From a virus: DNA of 64,000 nucleotides. Positions 4,791 to 62,676 of the stretch are shown here, piece after piece. The first letter of the stretch is position 1. The number at the start of each line of letters is the position of its first letter. Below the pieces are notes generated by a model, which searched no databases, had not been told where the DNA came from, and was given only the letters and a program-made list of their open reading frames with translations. A program made the position numbers and the translations under genes. Where the stretch lies: IMG/VR virus record IMGVR_UViG_3300031933_000215, positions 1-64,000 of that record. One strand, written 5' to 3'.

Positions 4791-6965
4791 TTAAAACACG
4801 AAACCCACCTGAGGCATTCGACTTTGGCGAGCGTGTCGATTGAGTTTGTTCTTACGACTGCGCGTCTCATGTGCCTGTTTGATCATCGCGTCGATGGAAT
4901 TACCCATACTCTCTTGGATGTCAAACCGGCCTGACAATTGCTTCAGGCGCATCTCCAATTTGGAAATGGTCATTGGATCGTTCGCGACTTTCAGTTCCTC
5001 CATTAACCGGTTGAACTCGTTCATGTATTCTTTCTGTTGGTTATGGCGGTGCACCTCGGTCTTGGACATCTTAACCTTGTCAATCTCCGTGTCGGAGAAG
5101 ACTTTGGTGGCGTCGATGCCGTAAACGTCCAAGTGTTTCGCCTTGGTGCAGAACCAGTGAGCCAACAAGAAAGACACCACCATGTCGTCGTGGTTCCCTT
5201 GCGAGTGGTCAATCCGTCCGTTACGGATAGTCAACGACAGGATCTCATTGATCAACGTCTTATCGTAGATCCGCTTTCCGCCCAGACGAATGGCCGATTT
5301 CAAAGCAGCACCGTAAAGGTTATCCCGAGAGTGGGCCCCGGACCCGGAGGTGTTGAAACCGAAATACCGCTTGAACCGGTCGTAGAAATACGAGGGTCTT
5401 GCGTTAACCGGACGTTGGATTTCCTTCCATTCGGTACTGTACTTGTTCGGATCGTCCACGATTAGGTTGTAGATCCGTTTGAACGGGTCCACGCCTTCCA
5501 CTGTTAAGTGAATGATCATGGTGTCCAGGATAGCCATACCACTGGACTTTCGCTCAGGCACGAACGTGATGTTGGGGAAACGGATCAACAACTTCGCCAG
5601 CCATTTCGAGAACCGGCTGAGGTTCGTCTCGTTGTATCGGCCGGTGCAGATGACGTCGTGGGTGTAGGCATCGATGATGACCAGACCTGTGGCATCGTTC
5701 TCGGCACCAAGTGCGTCACTGGGATCGTTGCCGGCCACAAACTTACTGGACGCCATCCGACTTTCAATCTCGTGTTCCGGGATGTACCAACGAATGGTGT
5801 ACCCTTCCTCGGAGATGTCCATGTAATCGATTTCACGTTCCGAGCTTTTGACTGCTTCTTTCTCTTCCGTGTTCAGTGGTGACCCTTCGTTACCGGTGGT
5901 CCAAATGTTCAGGTAATCCCGGTCGGCGATTTCACCTTCGGATGCGGATTCCCGAAGTTTCTGGAACAGCCATTGATCGGTCTTACCCAGTTGACGATGG
6001 TTGAACGCGCCGTAGATCAACGGCTTTACGCCAGAGGATGCCAAATCCACAACCCGCTCCAACTCGGCCTGGTTCTTCAGATCGAAGTACCGTTCGTCCC
6101 AAATGGCACCGCCGGTTAGGAACCGGTAAGCGTAACCACCATCCCGGGAATTGATCTTACCTGCGGTTGTGGTGTATACGTTACCGTAAGGTTGGTTCAC
6201 CGACGCCGCTTCTTCCCGAGCGGCCGAACCGGAGGACAGGGCAACGGGTAGAGAGATCTCAATGAGGTTGATGTACGCCAGCTCATCGAAGTGCATGATA
6301 GGCACGGTCAGACCCCGGCCCAGTTTGTCGGCGGCGATCTTGTCGTTACGACCCACCGACGTCTTGTAGCGATTGCCGAGTTTGTGGTTGGTGATGATTT
6401 CACTGTTGTCGGCATCGATGCGGTTGGGGTAATAAATGTAATCGGGGAGCAGGGCCCGGATTTCTTTGAGGCGTTCAACGTTGTTGTTACGAAGCGCCAA
6501 ATCCTTAGTGATCAGGTTAATGGTCGTGTTACTGGCCCAGATGTCCTTCAGTCCGGTAAACAACACGTCCGCTGAGACCGACTTACCGGTCTGTCGGGGT
6601 TGGAGCAATCCAAAATCCACGTGGTTAAAGAACGACCAATACATGGCGATGTTGCCACGGTTCGCACGGAAGCGTACCGGGACCGTACCGGCGTTTGGTG
6701 GTAGTCGGGCTACTTCACGGAAGAAGTACCATGCGTTGTAGCGACACTCCATACTGATTTTGAATTTGGTTTCTTGTGAGAGGTCGGGATCGAATGGGTC
6801 GACGCCCACTAGGTCGGGTTGATACAACGCCAAGATGAATTCGGCGTTTTCAACCCCCATGTTCTTGTACAGGAACACCAACCGTTTGAACGATTCGTTG
6901 GTTGTGTTGTAGTCAACAATCGCCGTCGGGTAGTCATTCCAATCGTCTTTGAAGAGTATCGTCAT
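4791..6965 (-). CDS. terL: Terminase large subunit (TerL)
   Basis: 724 aa DNA-packaging motor. The ATPase half has Walker A PRQTGKS (about 123-129) and Walker B IMHFDEL (D227, E228). The nuclease half carries acidic residues in GNDPSDA, in the FVPE strand, and in a late HDDMVVS motif, fitting the RNase H-like headful nuclease fold. An N-terminal region of about 90 residues precedes the ATPase. The gene heads a minus-strand position just before three probable virion genes, the tail sheath and the tube, the same order as phiKZ gp25 to gp30. The ATG at 6965 is clear. Confidence 0.93.
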   Translation of the reverse strand: MTILFKDDWNDYPTAIVDYNTTNESFKRLVFLYKNMGVENAEFILALYQPDLVGVDPFDPDLSQETKFKISMECRYNAWYFFREVARLPPNAGTVPVRFRANRGNIAMYWSFFNHVDFGLLQPRQTGKSVSADVLFTGLKDIWASNTTINLITKDLALRNNNVERLKEIRALLPDYIYYPNRIDADNSEIITNHKLGNRYKTSVGRNDKIAADKLGRGLTVPIMHFDELAYINLIEISLPVALSSGSAAREEAASVNQPYGNVYTTTAGKINSRDGGYAYRFLTGGAIWDERYFDLKNQAELERVVDLASSGVKPLIYGAFNHRQLGKTDQWLFQKLRESASEGEIADRDYLNIWTTGNEGSPLNTEEKEAVKSSEREIDYMDISEEGYTIRWYIPEHEIESRMASSKFVAGNDPSDALGAENDATGLVIIDAYTHDVICTGRYNETNLSRFSKWLAKLLIRFPNITFVPERKSSGMAILDTMIIHLTVEGVDPFKRIYNLIVDDPNKYSTEWKEIQRPVNARPSYFYDRFKRYFGFNTSGSGAHSRDNLYGAALKSAIRLGGKRIYDKTLINEILSLTIRNGRIDHSQGNHDDMVVSFLLAHWFCTKAKHLDVYGIDATKVFSDTEIDKVKMSKTEVHRHNQQKEYMNEFNRLMEELKVANDPMTISKLEMRLKQLSGRFDIQESMGNSIDAMIKQAHETRSRKNKLNRHARQSRMPQVGFVF

Positions 6966-37946: not shown

Positions 37947-38315
37947 ATGCAACAAAACGAACCGAACGCAACAAAGCCACACAATCCCGACGCCGAAGGT
38001 GGGACGATGAAAGTGACTTTGGGCGAGGACAAGCAAACGCAACCCACAGTTAATATCTCTGTGACCAGCAACCTGCCTCACATTGGTAAGACCGCCATCG
38101 CAGTGATCATCACGGACGCCCTGCTGACGCAAGGCTTTGAAAACGTTCGAGTGTTTTCGATGGATGGGGATTTCCCGAAACACGCCAACCGGGATCTCCT
38201 TACCGTAGACGATCTTGCCGTTGAACCGTTGATTCAGATCGACGACACCAACGGGTATGGGATCGGTGAATTCACCACACAGTTTAAAGTGGGGCCTAAA
38301 ACCCAAGGGGGGTGA
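37947..38315 (+). CDS. Small protein with a P-loop-like segment
   Basis: 122 aa from the ATG at 37947, after AAAGGAAA. TSNLPHIGKTAIAVII (54-69) looks like a strand-loop-helix nucleotide-binding start, but it lacks the first glycine of the usual GxxxxGKT. VFSMDGDFP follows as a possible second strand. The protein is too short for a full P-loop enzyme, so it may be a reduced NTP-binding protein or a regulator. It sits 15 bases after the RNA polymerase gene, and its stop overlaps the next GTG/ATG start. Confidence 0.68.
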   Translation: MQQNEPNATKPHNPDAEGGTMKVTLGEDKQTQPTVNISVTSNLPHIGKTAIAVIITDALLTQGFENVRVFSMDGDFPKHANRDLLTVDDLAVEPLIQIDDTNGYGIGEFTTQFKVGPKTQGG

Positions 38316-38317
38316 TC

Positions 38318-38935
38318 ATGGCACAGTACGTACCAGGCGGTGCCGATCTCATTGACATCATGGCCGGTGGACGCCCCGACGAAGCCACCCGACAGTGGTT
38401 CGCCGAACGGGCCGAGGTGGTTCAGCAGAACCTGACCAACACCAGCCGGGCGTTCTTTGATCGGGCCCGGAGCCTGTATCAGACGATCTCCGAATCGCAA
38501 GCGCTGCAGATGCTGCGGAACCTCAGGACCAAGAGCGACGATGTGTGGTCGGGCAACGTGATCGAACCACTGCGGACGCTGGAGTCGATCCAGACCGCCT
38601 CGCCGGTCATGCAGCGGATGATCATGGCTCAGCCGGATCTGCGCAAGCGGTACCTGAACCAAGAAGTGGAAGCGTACGGCGACAACTACACCAACTTCCA
38701 CGGCGACGTTTGGGGTGCGATGCACTTCGACTACCGACGCGTCATGGACGGTGTACTGGAATTCGAAGACGAGTCCAGTTACGTCATCCGTCACTTCATC
38801 GACTACATGGAAGAGGACGAACGCAACCTGTCAACGCACGAGAAGATCGACATCCTGAATACGTGGGATGTGGTGAAACGTCTGTTAGACGAAGGCGGGG
38901 AAGACCCCACCTCACCGGTAGGCAACGACCTCTAA
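38318..38935 (+). CDS. Uncharacterised helical protein
   Basis: 205 aa from the ATG at 38318, with GGGG-GTGATC just upstream. Long helices dominate (ATRQWFAERAEVVQQNL, YQTISESQALQMLRNLRT), with an acidic C-terminal domain. No motif indicates function. It overlaps the end of the P-loop-like gene by a few bases, so the two are probably translated together as part of the polymerase operon. Confidence 0.68.
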   Translation: MAQYVPGGADLIDIMAGGRPDEATRQWFAERAEVVQQNLTNTSRAFFDRARSLYQTISESQALQMLRNLRTKSDDVWSGNVIEPLRTLESIQTASPVMQRMIMAQPDLRKRYLNQEVEAYGDNYTNFHGDVWGAMHFDYRRVMDGVLEFEDESSYVIRHFIDYMEEDERNLSTHEKIDILNTWDVVKRLLDEGGEDPTSPVGNDL

Positions 38936-42993: not shown

Positions 42994-43106
42994 ATTACTC
43001 CGCGTCGCTATCATACGAGAAACCCAAGCACGCAGACGCCCGATGTGTTTAAAGGCGTATGTCGTCGTCTCAACGGAATAAACCATAATTGACCTGGAGT
43101 ATACAC

Positions 43107-43829
43107 ATGGCTGACCAACGTCCCCCCATCAAACCCAATCCGCTGGACGTCATGTCCACGTGGTTCTTTGCCGAGCCGGTAGCCGGTGCTACGAAGCGCC
43201 CGAACTTCCGCGCCAAAGTGATTGGTAACGTCCCTCGGTTTGTTGTTAAGACCAACGTCCCCGATGACCGGAACAACGGTCGTATTGATTTCAACATGGA
43301 TCTGCCGACCTTTGGTGCGATCATGAGTCGGTTCCAGAAACTGGCCGACGGTGGTGATGAGCCGTTCACTTTCGAGTACAACGACGACTTCGTCGGTGGT
43401 AAGAAGCTCGACAAGCCGGTAACCGTGGCCAGTGTAAAAGGCGGGCGTGATCGTGAAACCGGTCGCATCTACATCGCCGTATTGGGTTACAACCGACCGA
43501 AGATCCAGTTCTTCTTCGGCCCGTCCAAATTCCACGCCATGAAACACGGCGATGGTTCCGAAGTCAGTCAGGCTGAGGTCAGCAACGCGTACTGCGCCAG
43601 CTTTGTGAACATGTATTCCAAGTTGGTTGCTGAACTTCTGGTCTCCGAGTTCAACGAAGACGGTAAGAACGTGGCCAAGGCACCGACAGCCCAAGGCGGC
43701 GGTGGTGGTCAAGGTTACCAGAACCGTGGTGGCGGTCAGCAGTATGGCGGCGGCAACAGCGGCGGCGGTCAACCGTCCGGTGGTGGCGATAGCTTCAAGA
43801 ACGCCGACAGCTTCGAGGATTTCCTCTAA
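43107..43829 (+). CDS. Putative single-stranded DNA-binding protein
   Basis: 240 aa from the ATG at 43107, after a GGAG site. The first 180 residues are beta-rich, fitting an OB-type fold. A flexible Gly/Gln tail of about 40 residues (GGGGGQGYQNRGGGQQYGGG and more) ends in an acidic, aromatic tip, SFEDFL. That flexible-tail-plus-acidic-tip design is typical of SSB proteins, which use the tip to recruit polymerase and helicase. Its place beside the SbcD-like nuclease and polymerase genes fits. Fold identity is inferred. Confidence 0.6.
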   Translation: MADQRPPIKPNPLDVMSTWFFAEPVAGATKRPNFRAKVIGNVPRFVVKTNVPDDRNNGRIDFNMDLPTFGAIMSRFQKLADGGDEPFTFEYNDDFVGGKKLDKPVTVASVKGGRDRETGRIYIAVLGYNRPKIQFFFGPSKFHAMKHGDGSEVSQAEVSNAYCASFVNMYSKLVAELLVSEFNEDGKNVAKAPTAQGGGGGQGYQNRGGGQQYGGGNSGGGQPSGGGDSFKNADSFEDFL

Positions 43830-43840
43830 CCTTCCATTCA

Positions 43841-43877
43841 CACAAACCCCAGGGACCATGTGGCTCTGGGGTTTGTG
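43841..43877 (+). terminator. Strong hairpin after the SSB-like gene
   Basis: CACAAACCCCAG/CTGGGGTTTGTG (43841-43852 with 43866-43877) is a perfect 12-bp stem. No T run follows, so it may be a terminator with another signal or a processing site. Confidence 0.7.
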
Positions 43878-43908
43878 CCCTACCCCCAATTGAATAAAAA
43901 ATCAAACC

Positions 43909-54546: not shown

Positions 54547-54586
54547 CGGGGGAGGGTGACAGCTCCCCCGTTGTTGTACCCAACAA
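54547..54586 (+). terminator. Hairpin pair over the helicase start
   Basis: CGGGGGAG/CTCCCCCG (54547-54554 with 54563-54570) is a perfect 8-bp stem, directly followed by TTGTTG/CAACAA (54571-54576 with 54581-54586), which runs into the ATG at 54586. It may be a terminator of the polymerase operon or a fold that hides the helicase start. Confidence 0.6.
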
Positions 54587-57153
54587 TGAAATCATTACTG
54601 ACGCTCGACGTTTATTCTCACGGGGTCCGCATCAGTGGATACACCCGTGAGACCTTTCGTATCATTGCTGTTTTTTTGGAACGACTGGCGCTAAAAGAAC
54701 CACGCCACATTCCACAGGAACGGCGAATGGTCATGGAACTGAAGAAACGGTTCTACGGCCTAACCGATTCCCGCAAGGAATCTTTCATCCACCGCTACCA
54801 GCTTGAAGAGTTTCTGCTCTACTTGAAAGACCGTGGATTGGAAGGGCGATTTGAGATCAACCATATCGACGCCCCGGTACCCACCCCAGCCACGTTTGAT
54901 ATTTACGATCACTATGAAACCCGTGGATACCAGATTCCCATCGTTGAGTTCATGACCACCCCCGATAAGCGCTCTTGCCGCCTGGACCTCCAGACCGGCA
55001 AGGGGAAGGCCGAGACACTCTATTCTCGAATTAAAGTGCCTGGTGGTTGGTCTACAATGGGTGAGATGGAGGTTGGTACGAAAGTCACAGCATGGGATGG
55101 AACCACCACCCATGTAACGGGAGTATACCCACAGGGAACCACTCCCGTTTATAGGGTAACGTTTTGGGACGGACGTCATGTTGATGTTTGTCCTGAGCAT
55201 CTCTGGAAAGCGTTCTATGTGAACACTGTACCCCATAGACGGTGGCGGGTTATTGATACCTTGGAACTCAAAAGACTAAGTGAAATGCCCAATCCACGGG
55301 TATATGTTCCTTTGTGTCAATCCGAAGACGGCCCTGAGGTTGATGTCACAATACCGCCATACACACTGGGCGTACTTATTGGAGACGGTAACCTAACCGG
55401 AACCGGTATAAATATATTCAAACCAGATAACGAGCTGTTCGAAAATATTAGGGAGGAATTATTACCGGGTCACGAGTTACGCGACTCTCTAAAGAAGCCG
55501 GGTTTACGTTCCTTGGTAAATGCCAACGGAGGTGAAAACCTATACCGTCGCTACCTCAAAGAAATGGACATTGACGGAACCTATTCTTGGGAAAAATACA
55601 TTCCCCAGAATTACCTCCACGGATCTACGGAACAACGGTGGGCATTACTACAGGGATTGATGGACACAGACGGGACAGTCAACACCAGAGAAACCGGTGG
55701 GGCTGTGTCGTTTAACTCCACCAGTCGTCGTTTGGCGGGGCAAGTTCAATACCTTGTGCGTTCTCTTGGCGGTATTGCCTCAATCAGTGAACGCAATACA
55801 CAATACACATACAACGGAGAAAAATGTCAGGGACGTAAGTCTTACGATGTTAACATCCGTCACCCGAAACAACGAAAACTATTCCGCCTACCACGGAAGT
55901 TAGAACGTATACCTGAAACTAACCAATATTCGGAGGATTTAAAACTCAGAGTTCGTTCGGTTGAATACCTTGGTGAGGAACCAACTCAATGCATTTCAAT
56001 CGATCATCCGGAGCGCCTGTATGTAACCAATGACTTCATTGTGACACACAACACCTATTGCGCCTTACGGTCGGTGGCCACCCTGGGCGTTCGGACGGTG
56101 GTGATGGTGTCGCCCAAATACTTCGGCATTTGGGAAAAAGCCCTGAAAGAAACCTACAAAGACATAGATGGACGTTACTGTACGGTTTCCGGTTCCGCCG
56201 AGTTGCGGGCGTTGATTGAGAAGGGCGTGGAAGGAGACCTGGACTACGATGTGATCATTGTCTCCAACGTAACCTACCGCAGCTACCTGGAATCGTACGA
56301 GCGGTTCGGTGAGGCGATCACCAGCATCGGCTATTTGGTCCCGCCCCCACGGTTTCATGAAGCCTTGGGCGCTGGGGTGCAAATCAACGATGAGTTCCAA
56401 GACGACCCCGGTCTGGTGTTCCGCACGGATGTTTACACGAATGTCAGAAAACAGTTGTACTTGTCCGCCACGCCATTCACTGGGAACGAGTTCGTCACCC
56501 GCATGATCGACGTGATGCTCCCCAAAGAGACGTCCTGTCCCTTGCCGGAATACGACCAGTACATCAATGTGATCGGACTGATGTACCACGACCCGGACGT
56601 TAAACGCAAAGACTACCTGACGCCCTTTAAGAACACCTACAATCACACCCGGTACGAGAAACGCCTGCTCAAAGCCAAGCGTCGATTGGAACGGTACAAG
56701 CGGATGGTGTTCAAGGTCATCAACGGCATTTACATCAAAGACCGGGAACCGGGCCAGAAGCTACTGGTTCTGTGCGCCACGGTGGACTTCATCAAACACC
56801 TGACCAAGGAGTTGAAGCTGAAGTACCCCGACTTGACCATCGGTGAGTTCGTGGCGGGGTCCAACCCCAAGACGCTGCAAACCAACGACATCACGGTGTC
56901 GACCATCAAGTCGGCCGGGACCGGTCAAGACATCATTGACTTAAGAGAAGTACTGCTGCTGCAAGCAACGGATTCCAAGAAGGACAACATCCAAATCCTG
57001 GGCCGTCTGAGACGCATGAAAAACTGGCCAGAACACACACCACGCATGACGTATATGGTGTGTATGGACATCCCACAGCAGATTCGTTACTTCAAAAATA
57101 AGAAGGGTCATTTCGATGGACGCGTCGTGTCCCATCGGGTGATGCGTATCTAG
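54556..57153 (+). CDS. SF2 helicase containing an intein
   Basis: 865 aa precursor from GTG at 54556, with GGAGG upstream; ATG at 54586 is the alternative and lacks a clear site. The helicase halves are Walker A QTGKGK at 146-151 joined after the intein to TYCALRS; motif II INDEFQDD; SAT motif LSATPF; and motif VI QILGRLRRM. The spliced product of 517 aa would unwind DNA or RNA in replication or transcription. Phage nuclear replication is the likely setting. The gene immediately follows the RNA polymerase genes. The intein (55009-56052) must splice out for the Walker A loop to form. Confidence 0.9.
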   Translation: MTAPPLLYPTMKSLLTLDVYSHGVRISGYTRETFRIIAVFLERLALKEPRHIPQERRMVMELKKRFYGLTDSRKESFIHRYQLEEFLLYLKDRGLEGRFEINHIDAPVPTPATFDIYDHYETRGYQIPIVEFMTTPDKRSCRLDLQTGKGKAETLYSRIKVPGGWSTMGEMEVGTKVTAWDGTTTHVTGVYPQGTTPVYRVTFWDGRHVDVCPEHLWKAFYVNTVPHRRWRVIDTLELKRLSEMPNPRVYVPLCQSEDGPEVDVTIPPYTLGVLIGDGNLTGTGINIFKPDNELFENIREELLPGHELRDSLKKPGLRSLVNANGGENLYRRYLKEMDIDGTYSWEKYIPQNYLHGSTEQRWALLQGLMDTDGTVNTRETGGAVSFNSTSRRLAGQVQYLVRSLGGIASISERNTQYTYNGEKCQGRKSYDVNIRHPKQRKLFRLPRKLERIPETNQYSEDLKLRVRSVEYLGEEPTQCISIDHPERLYVTNDFIVTHNTYCALRSVATLGVRTVVMVSPKYFGIWEKALKETYKDIDGRYCTVSGSAELRALIEKGVEGDLDYDVIIVSNVTYRSYLESYERFGEAITSIGYLVPPPRFHEALGAGVQINDEFQDDPGLVFRTDVYTNVRKQLYLSATPFTGNEFVTRMIDVMLPKETSCPLPEYDQYINVIGLMYHDPDVKRKDYLTPFKNTYNHTRYEKRLLKAKRRLERYKRMVFKVINGIYIKDREPGQKLLVLCATVDFIKHLTKELKLKYPDLTIGEFVAGSNPKTLQTNDITVSTIKSAGTGQDIIDLREVLLLQATDSKKDNIQILGRLRRMKNWPEHTPRMTYMVCMDIPQQIRYFKNKKGHFDGRVVSHRVMRI
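55009..56052 (+). mobile_element. Intein with LAGLIDADG endonuclease in the helicase Walker A motif
   Basis: 348 aa intein that starts at an Ala (AETLYSRIKVPGG), contains block B-like DGRHVDVCPEHLWK, two dodecapeptide motifs (YTLGVLIGDG near 118-127 and LLQGLMDTDG near 213-222), and ends YVTNDFIVTHN before the Thr of the next extein. The Ala first residue and Thr at +1 mark the less common class. Insertion is after the Lys of GKGK, so splicing restores the GKT loop. The whole gene would be inactive without splicing. Confidence 0.9.
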
Positions 57154-59969: not shown

Positions 59970-60488
59970 TTAATCGTCACTGTTAGTGAAGTCCAAATCC
60001 AGTTGACGCTGCACACTGCGGTGGGTGTTCTCTTGCTGCGTGGCATCGGCTTGAGAGATGTCGTACAGCAAGTCCACGACGTACGGCGGTAGGTCCAAGA
60101 ACTCAGACAGCGACAAACCAAACTGTTTGCGGATCTGGTAATTGTAGTAACGTCGAATGTGGCTGAACAGCATGCTACCTTCCATGGCATCCTCTTTGGG
60201 ATGCATGGCCACCAACGCCAGCGGCTTGTGGGGATGGGGCTTCTCATGATCGAAGATCCCATACTCGGTTTGGTAACACGACAGGGTGATGATCTCAGCG
60301 GCCGTGGCACGGACCGCTGGGAGTTCGCGCAGCAACGCATCGATTTGGCCGGTGCTGTTTAGTTGATGCAACCCAAAGCTGGAGAACGCCACGTGCCCGT
60401 TCGCGTCGTCAAGATCGAGCGTTAGACGACTGAAACGGGCGTCCGTGTTGGTCTCCGGGTCTAGCTGTGCTTCAGGCTGACCAACGTA
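59970..60488 (-). CDS. Extension reached by -1 frameshift (tail assembly chaperone-like)
   Basis: 172 aa read from the slippery site, with no ATG or ribosome site of its own near the beginning. It continues the 558 residues before the shift, giving a 730-aa product. It reads FY|VGQPEAQLDPETN and ends in RQLDLDFTNSDD. The C-terminal part has FGLSLSEFLDLPPYVVDLL, a pattern like the short helix motif of tail-assembly chaperone extensions (GT proteins). GTG codons exist at 60392, but they fall inside this sequence, so a separate start is unlikely. Frameshift use is inferred from the sequence. Confidence 0.62.
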   Translation of the reverse strand, partial: YVGQPEAQLDPETNTDARFSRLTLDLDDANGHVAFSSFGLHQLNSTGQIDALLRELPAVRATAAEIITLSCYQTEYGIFDHEKPHPHKPLALVAMHPKEDAMEGSMLFSHIRRYYNYQIRKQFGLSLSEFLDLPPYVVDLLYDISQADATQQENTHRSVQRQLDLDFTNSDD

Positions 60489-60494
60489 AAAAAA
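60447..60494 (-). promoter_or_regulatory. Slippery heptamer and downstream stem for -1 frameshifting
   Basis: On the minus strand the zero frame reads ACT TTT TTT ACG, giving the canonical X XXY YYZ site T TTT TTT (60494-60488). Two bases later begins GTTGGTC, which pairs with GACCAAC 25 bases on (60485-60479 with 60453-60447), a 7-bp stem that can pause the ribosome. Slipping one base back opens the long downstream frame. Confidence 0.68.
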
Positions 60495-62161
60495 GTGGTA
60501 AGAACATCAAGGGGAACCAGATGCTCAAACCGCTCCTTAAACTTCTCAGCGACCGGGGTCTGACATTTGGGACAGTTGAACGATGGGATGGCAATCATGC
60601 TGATGAGGCTGTCGTCCATGTAACGATTCACCTCACCGAAGAACGTGTCCACGAACTCGTCGGTGGAGAAGATGTGGTTCAACGTTTCATTGATCACATC
60701 GGTGTCTTCCGACACCAGTTCTTCGTTGCCGTCCTCGTCCTTCTCGTGGATCGAGGTAACCCAATGGCTGTACTGACGGGCCGTGGTGGCCATCCCCAGA
60801 CGGGTGATGTACTGATCCCGGTTACTGCCGTGAGGTGGTTCGTTGAATGCCCCTTGGGTCATTTCGATGATACCGTTTATCCATGCCTGACCGGAGTCCT
60901 CATACTCCTGAATGCTTGGGACTTTCAGGGTCACCCCCAACTCGCCAAACCAGACCAGTCGTTGCCCGCCCCGAGTGTGTTCGGTCAGATACAGGCGCTG
61001 CTCATCGTCGGTCATCTTGGTGAATTTCCGAGCCATCAGTTTCTTCTGACCTTGGGTCAGTGAGGTACTGTCGGTCCAGTACAGGCGGTTGAGGTTCAGT
61101 GTTTCCTTAGTGACGTGTTGGCACTTCTCCACATCTGCCAGACACGGATGGGCATATGGGAACCCTTTCGGGTACAACGTCACCGCCAAACCCCAGAGTA
61201 CCATGGGGGCGTCCAACAACAGGATCTTTTCCTTCAGGTCACTTGGCGTTGTGTAATGCACGTTGCTGTCAATGACATACTGGAGTGCGAAGTCCAGTGC
61301 TGCCGACATCAACACCTGGGCGGTGTTGGAGAACGCCATGCCCTTACTGTCCGCACCCAGCGTCACCTTGATCTGCTGTAGCTCGTATTGCAAACCGGTG
61401 ATAGCTGACAGTGGTGGTGTCTTCATTCGCAGCCAAACGCCACTGTGCCACAGCGGCACATCAAATACGGTACCCACACCGGCTCGCCGAGCCAGGTAGG
61501 TCATGGTCTCCTCGCGACTGTGGTGGGTACCACCCAACTTCTGTTTGGGTTGACCCGGACGCAAGCCTTGACCTTCGTGATCCAGGATCTGTTGCCAGTC
61601 ACTACCTTCCCGTGCCAGACTGTTCTCGCCAAATCCGTTGAGTTGGGCGTAGGTCAGTGCGTTCATCGCCGTACGGAACCAAGCATTGCCTTCGTTGTCC
61701 GCAACCTCCCGGCCTTGCTTGGTGGCTTTCCTCTCCAGTTCCTCTTCCCGCGCGTTAATGTTTTCCAACATAGTCGTGGAACGGTCGAGAACCTGACTTA
61801 CCGTGCTGTAAGCTTCCCGGAAGACAGTCAGGATGTCAGTCAGCGCCGGGTCGGTAGTCAATTCCCCAGTAGTTTTCAGTTTCTCTTCAAACTGGTGGTA
61901 CGGCTGGTCGGGCACGAACGCATCGGTGGCCTCATCTTCGGGCTCTTCGTCACCCTCATTGCTGGGGTCGTTCCCGGTATCGGCTTCGCCTTCCTCGGTG
62001 GTTTCCTGTGTTGGGTGGTCGTGGTCTTCAGGCTCGGTGTTCAGAGCCATGTCTTCAGGCTCCGGCTCGCCGAACCGCCCCTGAAACTCTTCGGGAGTGG
62101 GTTGGGTATCGGACGACTCGTTGTTGACGTTCGGATTTTCGTTAGAATCGTTCTGATCCAT
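60461..62161 (-). CDS. Zinc-ribbon protein, short product of the frameshift pair
   Basis: 566 aa ending in LVSLKHS; 558 of these residues are shared with the frameshifted form. The first 100 residues are highly acidic and probably disordered (ETTEEGEADTGNDPSNEG). A helical region follows at about 110-170. NCPKCQTPV near residue 532 is half of a zinc ribbon just before the shift site. It resembles tail or baseplate assembly chaperones of large myophages, whose genes often end in a frameshift, although the length is greater. The ATG (62159-62161) is 2 bases past the previous stop. Confidence 0.68.
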   Translation of the reverse strand: MDQNDSNENPNVNNESSDTQPTPEEFQGRFGEPEPEDMALNTEPEDHDHPTQETTEEGEADTGNDPSNEGDEEPEDEATDAFVPDQPYHQFEEKLKTTGELTTDPALTDILTVFREAYSTVSQVLDRSTTMLENINAREEELERKATKQGREVADNEGNAWFRTAMNALTYAQLNGFGENSLAREGSDWQQILDHEGQGLRPGQPKQKLGGTHHSREETMTYLARRAGVGTVFDVPLWHSGVWLRMKTPPLSAITGLQYELQQIKVTLGADSKGMAFSNTAQVLMSAALDFALQYVIDSNVHYTTPSDLKEKILLLDAPMVLWGLAVTLYPKGFPYAHPCLADVEKCQHVTKETLNLNRLYWTDSTSLTQGQKKLMARKFTKMTDDEQRLYLTEHTRGGQRLVWFGELGVTLKVPSIQEYEDSGQAWINGIIEMTQGAFNEPPHGSNRDQYITRLGMATTARQYSHWVTSIHEKDEDGNEELVSEDTDVINETLNHIFSTDEFVDTFFGEVNRYMDDSLISMIAIPSFNCPKCQTPVAEKFKERFEHLVPLDVLTTFFTLVSLKHS

Positions 62162-62163
62162 TG

Positions 62164-62676
62164 TTAAGCCTCTTCCGTTGCAGGGGTGAGTTCCAGCATG
62201 TCACCGTGTTGCTCACGAATGACTTCAATCAGTGAAAGAATCAGCGGGGCAATAACCGTTTCGAAATGCGTTTCCAGGTTACTATATTCCATGCTGATTG
62301 AGAACATCACCGGCCAATCTTTCTCAGGCGGTACGCCCGAACGCCCTGCGTGTTTCTGATGGAGCGCGTCCAGGTTTTCTTTGTACTGTTTGATGTCACC
62401 AAGCAGTGTGTTGAAGCAACGAGAGAAACCGTCGGGGTCGTCCAGCTTCTCTTTCAGAGTGTCGAGCTGGTTCATGACTGGCAAGGTGAATCCCTGCGTG
62501 TGCAGAAGCTTCTTGGCACATTGGTGATACATCTGGTTAAGGACTTCCCAACCGGTTTCCGACTTCAATACAGCGTCGGCAACTACGCGTTGTGTTGCCT
62601 CGATATCTTCCTTGGTCAGGTCAACATCTTGTACATCAGCCGGTGCTTCATTAAGGTTCTTTTCGTTGGAAGACAT
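62164..62676 (-). CDS. Uncharacterised helical protein upstream of the frameshift gene
   Basis: 170 aa from the ATG at 62674-62676, with GGAG upstream. The sequence is almost all helix, acidic at the N-terminus (PADVQDVDLTKEDIEAT) and at the tail (HGDMLELTPATEEA). The next gene starts two bases after its stop, so both are translated as a pair. Its role may be assembly-related if the neighbour is a chaperone, but this is inference. Confidence 0.67.
   Translation of the reverse strand: MSSNEKNLNEAPADVQDVDLTKEDIEATQRVVADAVLKSETGWEVLNQMYHQCAKKLLHTQGFTLPVMNQLDTLKEKLDDPDGFSRCFNTLLGDIKQYKENLDALHQKHAGRSGVPPEKDWPVMFSISMEYSNLETHFETVIAPLILSLIEVIREQHGDMLELTPATEEA

Follow-up and report, generated by a model that had tools for sequence, protein, structure and literature searches.

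In the lambda gpG/gpGT pair and in other G-T chaperones, a -1 shift near the 3′ end of a single gene gives rise to two proteins, the longer of which carries a C-terminal extension that lacks a start of its own. The lambda pair acts on the tape measure protein. In T4, gp26 and gp51 both belong to Pfam PF12322, and gp51 is the longer at its C-terminus; at the very end of gp26 a Cys pair is followed by Phe-Phe, and gp51 has a C-terminal extension of similar motif. Both proteins are listed as hub assembly chaperones in a T4 tail review (PMC3004832). The T4-like cyanophages (P-SSM2, S-PM2 and others) carry T TTT TTC close to the gp26 stop, and their gp51 extension lies in the -1 frame. We found a much larger gene of the same architecture in phiKZ-type phages. 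On the evidence of sequence comparison, we consider it virtually certain that a programmed -1 ribosomal frameshift is conserved across these phages; the products and their ratio have not been shown.

The locus and its relation to known systems

The window is a 64,000-nucleotide stretch of a viral record (IMG/VR IMGVR_UViG_3300031933_000215, positions 1 to 64,000). The features of the locus are as follows.

62164-62676, minus strand: upstream gene, possible partner, 170 aa, homologue of phiKZ gp78 (phrog_14050, E=2.5e-35)
60461-62161, minus strand: zero-frame gene, an ORF of 566 codons, homologue of phiKZ gp77 and 201phi2-1 gp136, for the predicted short product
60563-60574, minus strand: codons of the second Cys pair of the zero-frame product (C530-P-K-C533, numbered from the ATG at 62161); both Cys are invariant across 27 aligned members
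60488-60494, minus strand: slippery heptamer T TTT TTT, zero frame ACT TTT TTT ACG, in the last codons of the 566-codon gene
60461-60463, minus strand: zero-frame stop TAG, 24 nt 3′ of the heptamer
59970-60488, minus strand: -1 frame extension, 172 codons plus stop (TAC GTT GGT ... TAA), supported by the open frame, tblastn matches, purifying selection and AlphaFold2
60447-60485, minus strand: 7-bp stem GTTGGTC (60485-60479) / GACCAAC (60453-60447), read from the sequence and not supported as a stimulator

The zero-frame protein matched phrog_4585 (E=4e-138) and runs from an acidic low-complexity N-terminus through a well-folded domain to a Cys pair and Phe-Phe at its end. From the heptamer, the -1 frame reads TTT TTT TAC... 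and continues for 172 codons beyond the shared Phe-Phe to the TAA at 59972-59970. The predicted fusion is thus 558+172 = 730 aa long, and its FFY junction peptide would contain STFFYFGGLEVK. The -1 frame offers no possible start before a GTG at 32 codons and no ATG before 94 codons; neither codon has a Shine-Dalgarno sequence ahead of it. A first-pass annotation, made from the letters of this DNA alone, had proposed slippage at T TTT TTT that joins the gene to a start-less 172-codon frame. Its coordinates for the heptamer and the frames proved right when the sequence was re-read, and the proposal is strongly supported by the 76 homologues described below. Among 144 mechanical ORFs of at least 100 aa in the window, eight have an in-phase X XXY YYZ heptamer near their end together with a -1 frame that is open from the heptamer, and the 566-codon gene has the longest extension of the eight (163 codons past the zero-frame stop, the next being 109).

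In the window (62164-62676, minus strand), as in almost every annotated relative fetched, a phiKZ gp78-type gene precedes the frameshift gene; it is possibly a partner of the frameshift gene, and its function is unknown.

phiKZ gp77 and 201phi2-1 gp136 and gp135 are direct homologues that share the heptamer and the -1 extension, but their records list separate hypothetical proteins or, in phiKZ, lack most of the extension. The frameshift is unannotated in every phiKZ-type record that we fetched. Recognizing it would add a missing domain to the products of these genes, as the extension is annotated as separate, truncated or absent in annotated records. No earlier description of this frameshift, or of one in cyanophage gp26/gp51, was found in the open-licence PubMed Central literature, mostly at the level of titles and abstracts, and a description elsewhere is not excluded.

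Predicted fold and function of the two products

AlphaFold2 modelled the last 479 residues of the zero-frame protein with pLDDT 90 and pTM 0.90, and the extension alone with pLDDT 89 and pTM 0.71. In a Foldseek comparison of the zero-frame core with viral models, phiKZ-type relatives ranked first, and the lower ranks included T4-like baseplate hub (assembly) proteins (E = 6e-4 to 2e-3, probability 1.00, TM by target about 0.5-0.57). This remote match, which rests on predicted structures, suggests that the zero-frame core shares its fold with the T4 gp26/gp51 hub-assembly family. A PDB fold search with the same model gave nothing below E = 0.7, and searching Pfam and the PDB by sequence with this protein of the window gave nothing useful. 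In particular, Pfam PF12322 had no match to the window protein at E<=1 and none in the phiKZ, SPN3US or Goslar genomes; phrog_634, the gp51-type C-terminus, was neither among the PHROG matches of the extension nor found in those three phages. When phiKZ-type sequences were aligned with gp51 by hhalign, the motif was placed correctly and the similarity was weak, and HMM-HMM comparison with T4 gp26/gp51 recovered no more than a weak alignment of the tail besides the Cys-pair motif. As sequence profiles leave homology of the phiKZ-type and T4-type proteins unproven, we claim only that the folds are similar and that the mechanism is of one kind, although we lean towards homology rather than analogy.

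In P-SSM2, a T4-like cyanophage, a single PF12322 gene ends ...CAG AGT TTT TTC GTA TAA, and a gp51-type C-terminus (phrog_634) overlaps it in the -1 frame. In all 51 distinct cyanophage-type loci gp26 ended AGT TTT TTC Nnn stop, and the gp51 extension lay in the -1 frame, which stayed open for 176-185 nt beyond the stop in contigs long enough to show it. Salmonella Vi01 likewise has the extension in the -1 frame, but its site, ATT TTC, is less canonical. These cyanophage proteins are much smaller than the phiKZ-type ones (239 + about 60 residues) and, unlike them, are clearly PF12322. The cyanophage gp26/gp51 genes thus resemble a -1 frameshift pair, and public records mostly list them as separate genes.

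T4 itself differs from the phiKZ type in having two separate genes without a slip site, and PF12322 matches the T4 proteins but not the phiKZ-type ones. A frameshift from gene 26 to gene 51 in T4 was rejected as a candidate; the two genes lie on opposite strands, and gp26, which ends GAG TTC TTT GAG TTA CTA TAA, has no slip site. T4 is said to be the exception to the conserved frameshifting of tail genes.

The zero-frame product is about 4 times the size of lambda gpG and, in contrast to gpG, carries Cys pairs; the phiKZ-type gene also differs from G/GT in having no Pfam or PHROG chaperone match. G/GT genes lie between those for tail tube and tape measure, whereas in the records fetched the phiKZ-type gene adjoins no gene annotated as either; its annotated neighbours are phiKZ gp78/gp79-type genes and genes for head structural protein, RNA polymerase subunits and helicase, and many neighbours are unnamed. 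Such neighbours, and the lack of any function from Pfam or PHROG, would also suit a protein that is made by a real frameshift and serves not as a tail or hub chaperone but in some other assembly or replication role. We regard this alternative as unlikely, though it cannot be set aside lightly. Of the lower-ranked Foldseek matches outside the phiKZ type, most of those that bear a specific functional name are T4-like baseplate hub (assembly) proteins or tail assembly chaperones, the frameshift architecture matches that of cyanophage gp26/gp51, and the record of one Erwinia phage labels the homologue T4 gp26-like. An assembly-chaperone role, which is inferred and has no proteomic or reporter data behind it, is therefore likely in our judgement, and the zero-frame/fusion pair is best read as related or analogous to the lambda G/GT chaperones, though large. 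The likeness to tail-assembly chaperones noted in the first-pass annotation is thus borne out by the fold and by the comparison with T4 gp26/gp51, but not by any Pfam or PHROG sequence match. The records of 201phi2-1 gp136 and gp135 do not carry the mass-spectrometry note that gp138 and gp139 carry, which is only a hint that the products are absent from the virion. With the chaperone reading, a conserved phiKZ-type gene of unknown function gains a concrete functional hypothesis.

Conservation of the slippery site and of the -1 frame

In tblastn searches, the zero-frame protein matched 221 phage records and the -1 frame matched 76, and in most of the Pseudomonas phages listed the similarity of the -1 frame starts at query residues 1-4, that is, at the slippery site. 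We assembled homologues from 25 named phiKZ-type phages (including phiKZ, Noxifer, PhiPA3, 201phi2-1, Goslar, SPN3US and Special G) and from IMG/VR relatives, and removal of duplicates left 76 distinct homologues, the window included. The IMG/VR relatives were gathered with narrower alignment sets, and the most diverse alignments lacked conserved stretches. One IMG/VR subset was retrieved partly by the Phe-Phe pattern and is thus partly selected for the motif, whereas the named phages and the other IMG/VR sets are not.

The -1 frame was open beyond the zero-frame stop in all 76 homologues, for 341-518 nt in 75 of them and for 146 nt in phage RVTF4, while the +1 frame was usually shut within tens of bases. 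At the join, 73 of the 76 have zero-frame TTT TTY exactly, and the three exceptions (L095, L096 and L109) retain TTT at the equivalent place, followed by a -1 codon for Tyr. The heptamers of the 73 sites were TTTTTTT (32), TTTTTTC (20), GTTTTTT (9), ATTTTTT (8), GTTTTTC (3) and ATTTTTC (1), so that the base before TTT TTY was T, G or A and never C. Where it is G or A (21 of 73 sites), the P-site tRNA would mispair at one base after the slip. The first Phe codon at the site is always TTT, although the other Phe codons of these genes favour TTC over TTT by 951 to 441; among 43 other Phe-Phe pairs in the same genes, none is TTTTTT and two are TTTTTC. A raw probability product of 10^-40 for this pattern overstates its significance, as the sequences are related, but the pattern extends over highly diverged groups of homologues. 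Within the 27-member alignment of the zero-frame protein, C340, C347, C530, C533 and Phe557-Phe558 are invariant; what had been described from the window alone as a zinc ribbon beside the shift is thus conserved as an invariant Cys pair followed by an invariant Phe-Phe.

In RVTF4, the extension ends early and its tblastn match falls in two pieces, which suggests that this record carries an indel or sequencing error.

A fused message could also be made if the RNA polymerase, and not the ribosome, slipped on the T run. phiKZ-type phages use their own multisubunit RNA polymerases, and we know of no measurement of the slippage of these enzymes on T runs, which leaves some room for this explanation. 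We nevertheless hold it to be very improbable. As many as 28 of the 73 sites have just 5 or 6 T, which is short for polymerase slippage, and the run is always phased XXY YYZ. The same site also occurs in T4-like cyanophages, which rely on the host RNA polymerase.

The -1 frame could instead be a downstream gene in its own right, with an independent start or one that is translationally coupled near the zero-frame stop. Most public records do annotate a distinct ORF with a late start, and the 201phi2-1 annotation places a TTG start that overlaps the stop. However, the similarity begins at the slippery site itself, as an alignment also shows. The first possible -1 start is found, at the median, 32 codons in; its position is not conserved among homologues, and in none of the 73 is it preceded by a Shine-Dalgarno sequence (background 5.4% per position), whereas 53 of 72 starts of the zero-frame gene have one. 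Moreover, the -1 frame is under purifying selection, also in the codons before any start. Past the zero-frame stop, pN/pS was 0.10-0.55 in 14 sequence pairs, with 365/212/829 substitutions at the first, second and third codon positions; in the zone ahead of any possible start the corresponding counts were 32/14/63. Given the lack of Shine-Dalgarno sequences at the -1 starts and the purifying selection, the extension is most simply reached by frameshifting, and a separate gene is scarcely credible. Homopolymers are error-prone, and the first-pass annotation had kept open a sequencing or assembly error in which a miscounted T run splits an ordinary 730-codon gene; we give next to no weight to this reading. 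The split recurs with its phase and T run in 76 distinct homologues drawn from many sources, the zero-frame tail after the shift varies among them from about 8 to 44 codons, and another IMG/VR contig has an identical 400 nt around the site, which rules the error out. None of the fetched homologues passes the site in one continuous frame, and the T run is conserved rather than miscounted.

Downstream RNA structure, which often but not always accompanies programmed -1 shifts, is not supported as a stimulator here. The 7-bp stem noted in the first-pass annotation exists and folds in isolation, but its z against shuffled sequences is only -0.96. Across the 73 homologues, RNA structure starting 0-6 nt after the heptamer had a mean z of about 0, with no excess of folding energy (pseudoknots were outside the test). 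A weak excess of structure was seen further 3′ (mean z -0.4 to -0.7 at 15-90 nt, 73 homologues) and is left uninterpreted.

Proposed mechanism, ancestry and other features of the window

Taken as a whole, a frameshift that gives a short and a long gp26/gp51-like assembly chaperone is, in our assessment, highly probable as the explanation of the locus. Most ribosomes would read TTT TTT ACG and end at the TAG, giving the 566-aa short protein. Some would slip back one base on the U-rich heptamer, with re-pairing of Phe-tRNA, and would then read TAC as Tyr. The slipped ribosomes would run to the TAA at 59970 and make the 730-aa fusion, whose 172-aa C-terminal domain is predicted to be mostly helical. 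By inference from the fold and from the T4-type parallel, the short protein may be a gp26-like and the fusion a gp51-like hub or tail assembly chaperone. There might be many short copies and few long ones, and the tail domain of the long form could tether a second assembly partner, which is likewise an inference.

We favour, but only slightly, the idea that a short and a long chaperone made by -1 frameshifting are ancestral to the T4-type and phiKZ-type contractile-tailed lineages. T4 would then have lost the shift by duplication into gp26 (short) and gp51 (permanently long), and the phiKZ-type version would have become enlarged. This offers a testable explanation for the T4 exception, in that T4-like cyanophages keep the shift and T4 has two genes.

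Several other features of the window were recorded. Two ORFs on the minus strand, 38234-38794 and 43011-43889, have an in-phase TTTAAAC heptamer with -1 frames open for 109 and 103 codons, respectively; neither had a Pfam or PHROG match, and possibly they are not genes. Near the end of the ORF of the terminase large subunit (4791-6965, minus strand, 724 aa) there is a GGGTTTC heptamer with a -1 frame of 92 codons. The best PHROG terminase stretch of this ORF spans no more than about residues 2-220, and an insertion or a split gene is possible. Finally, a predicted helicase ORF with a GTG start (54556-57153, plus strand) matched Pfam LAGLIDADG_3 and Hom_end and appears to carry an intein with a homing endonuclease, inserted after a TGKGK motif. 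As read by eye, the intein would start with Ala and end with HN before Thr.
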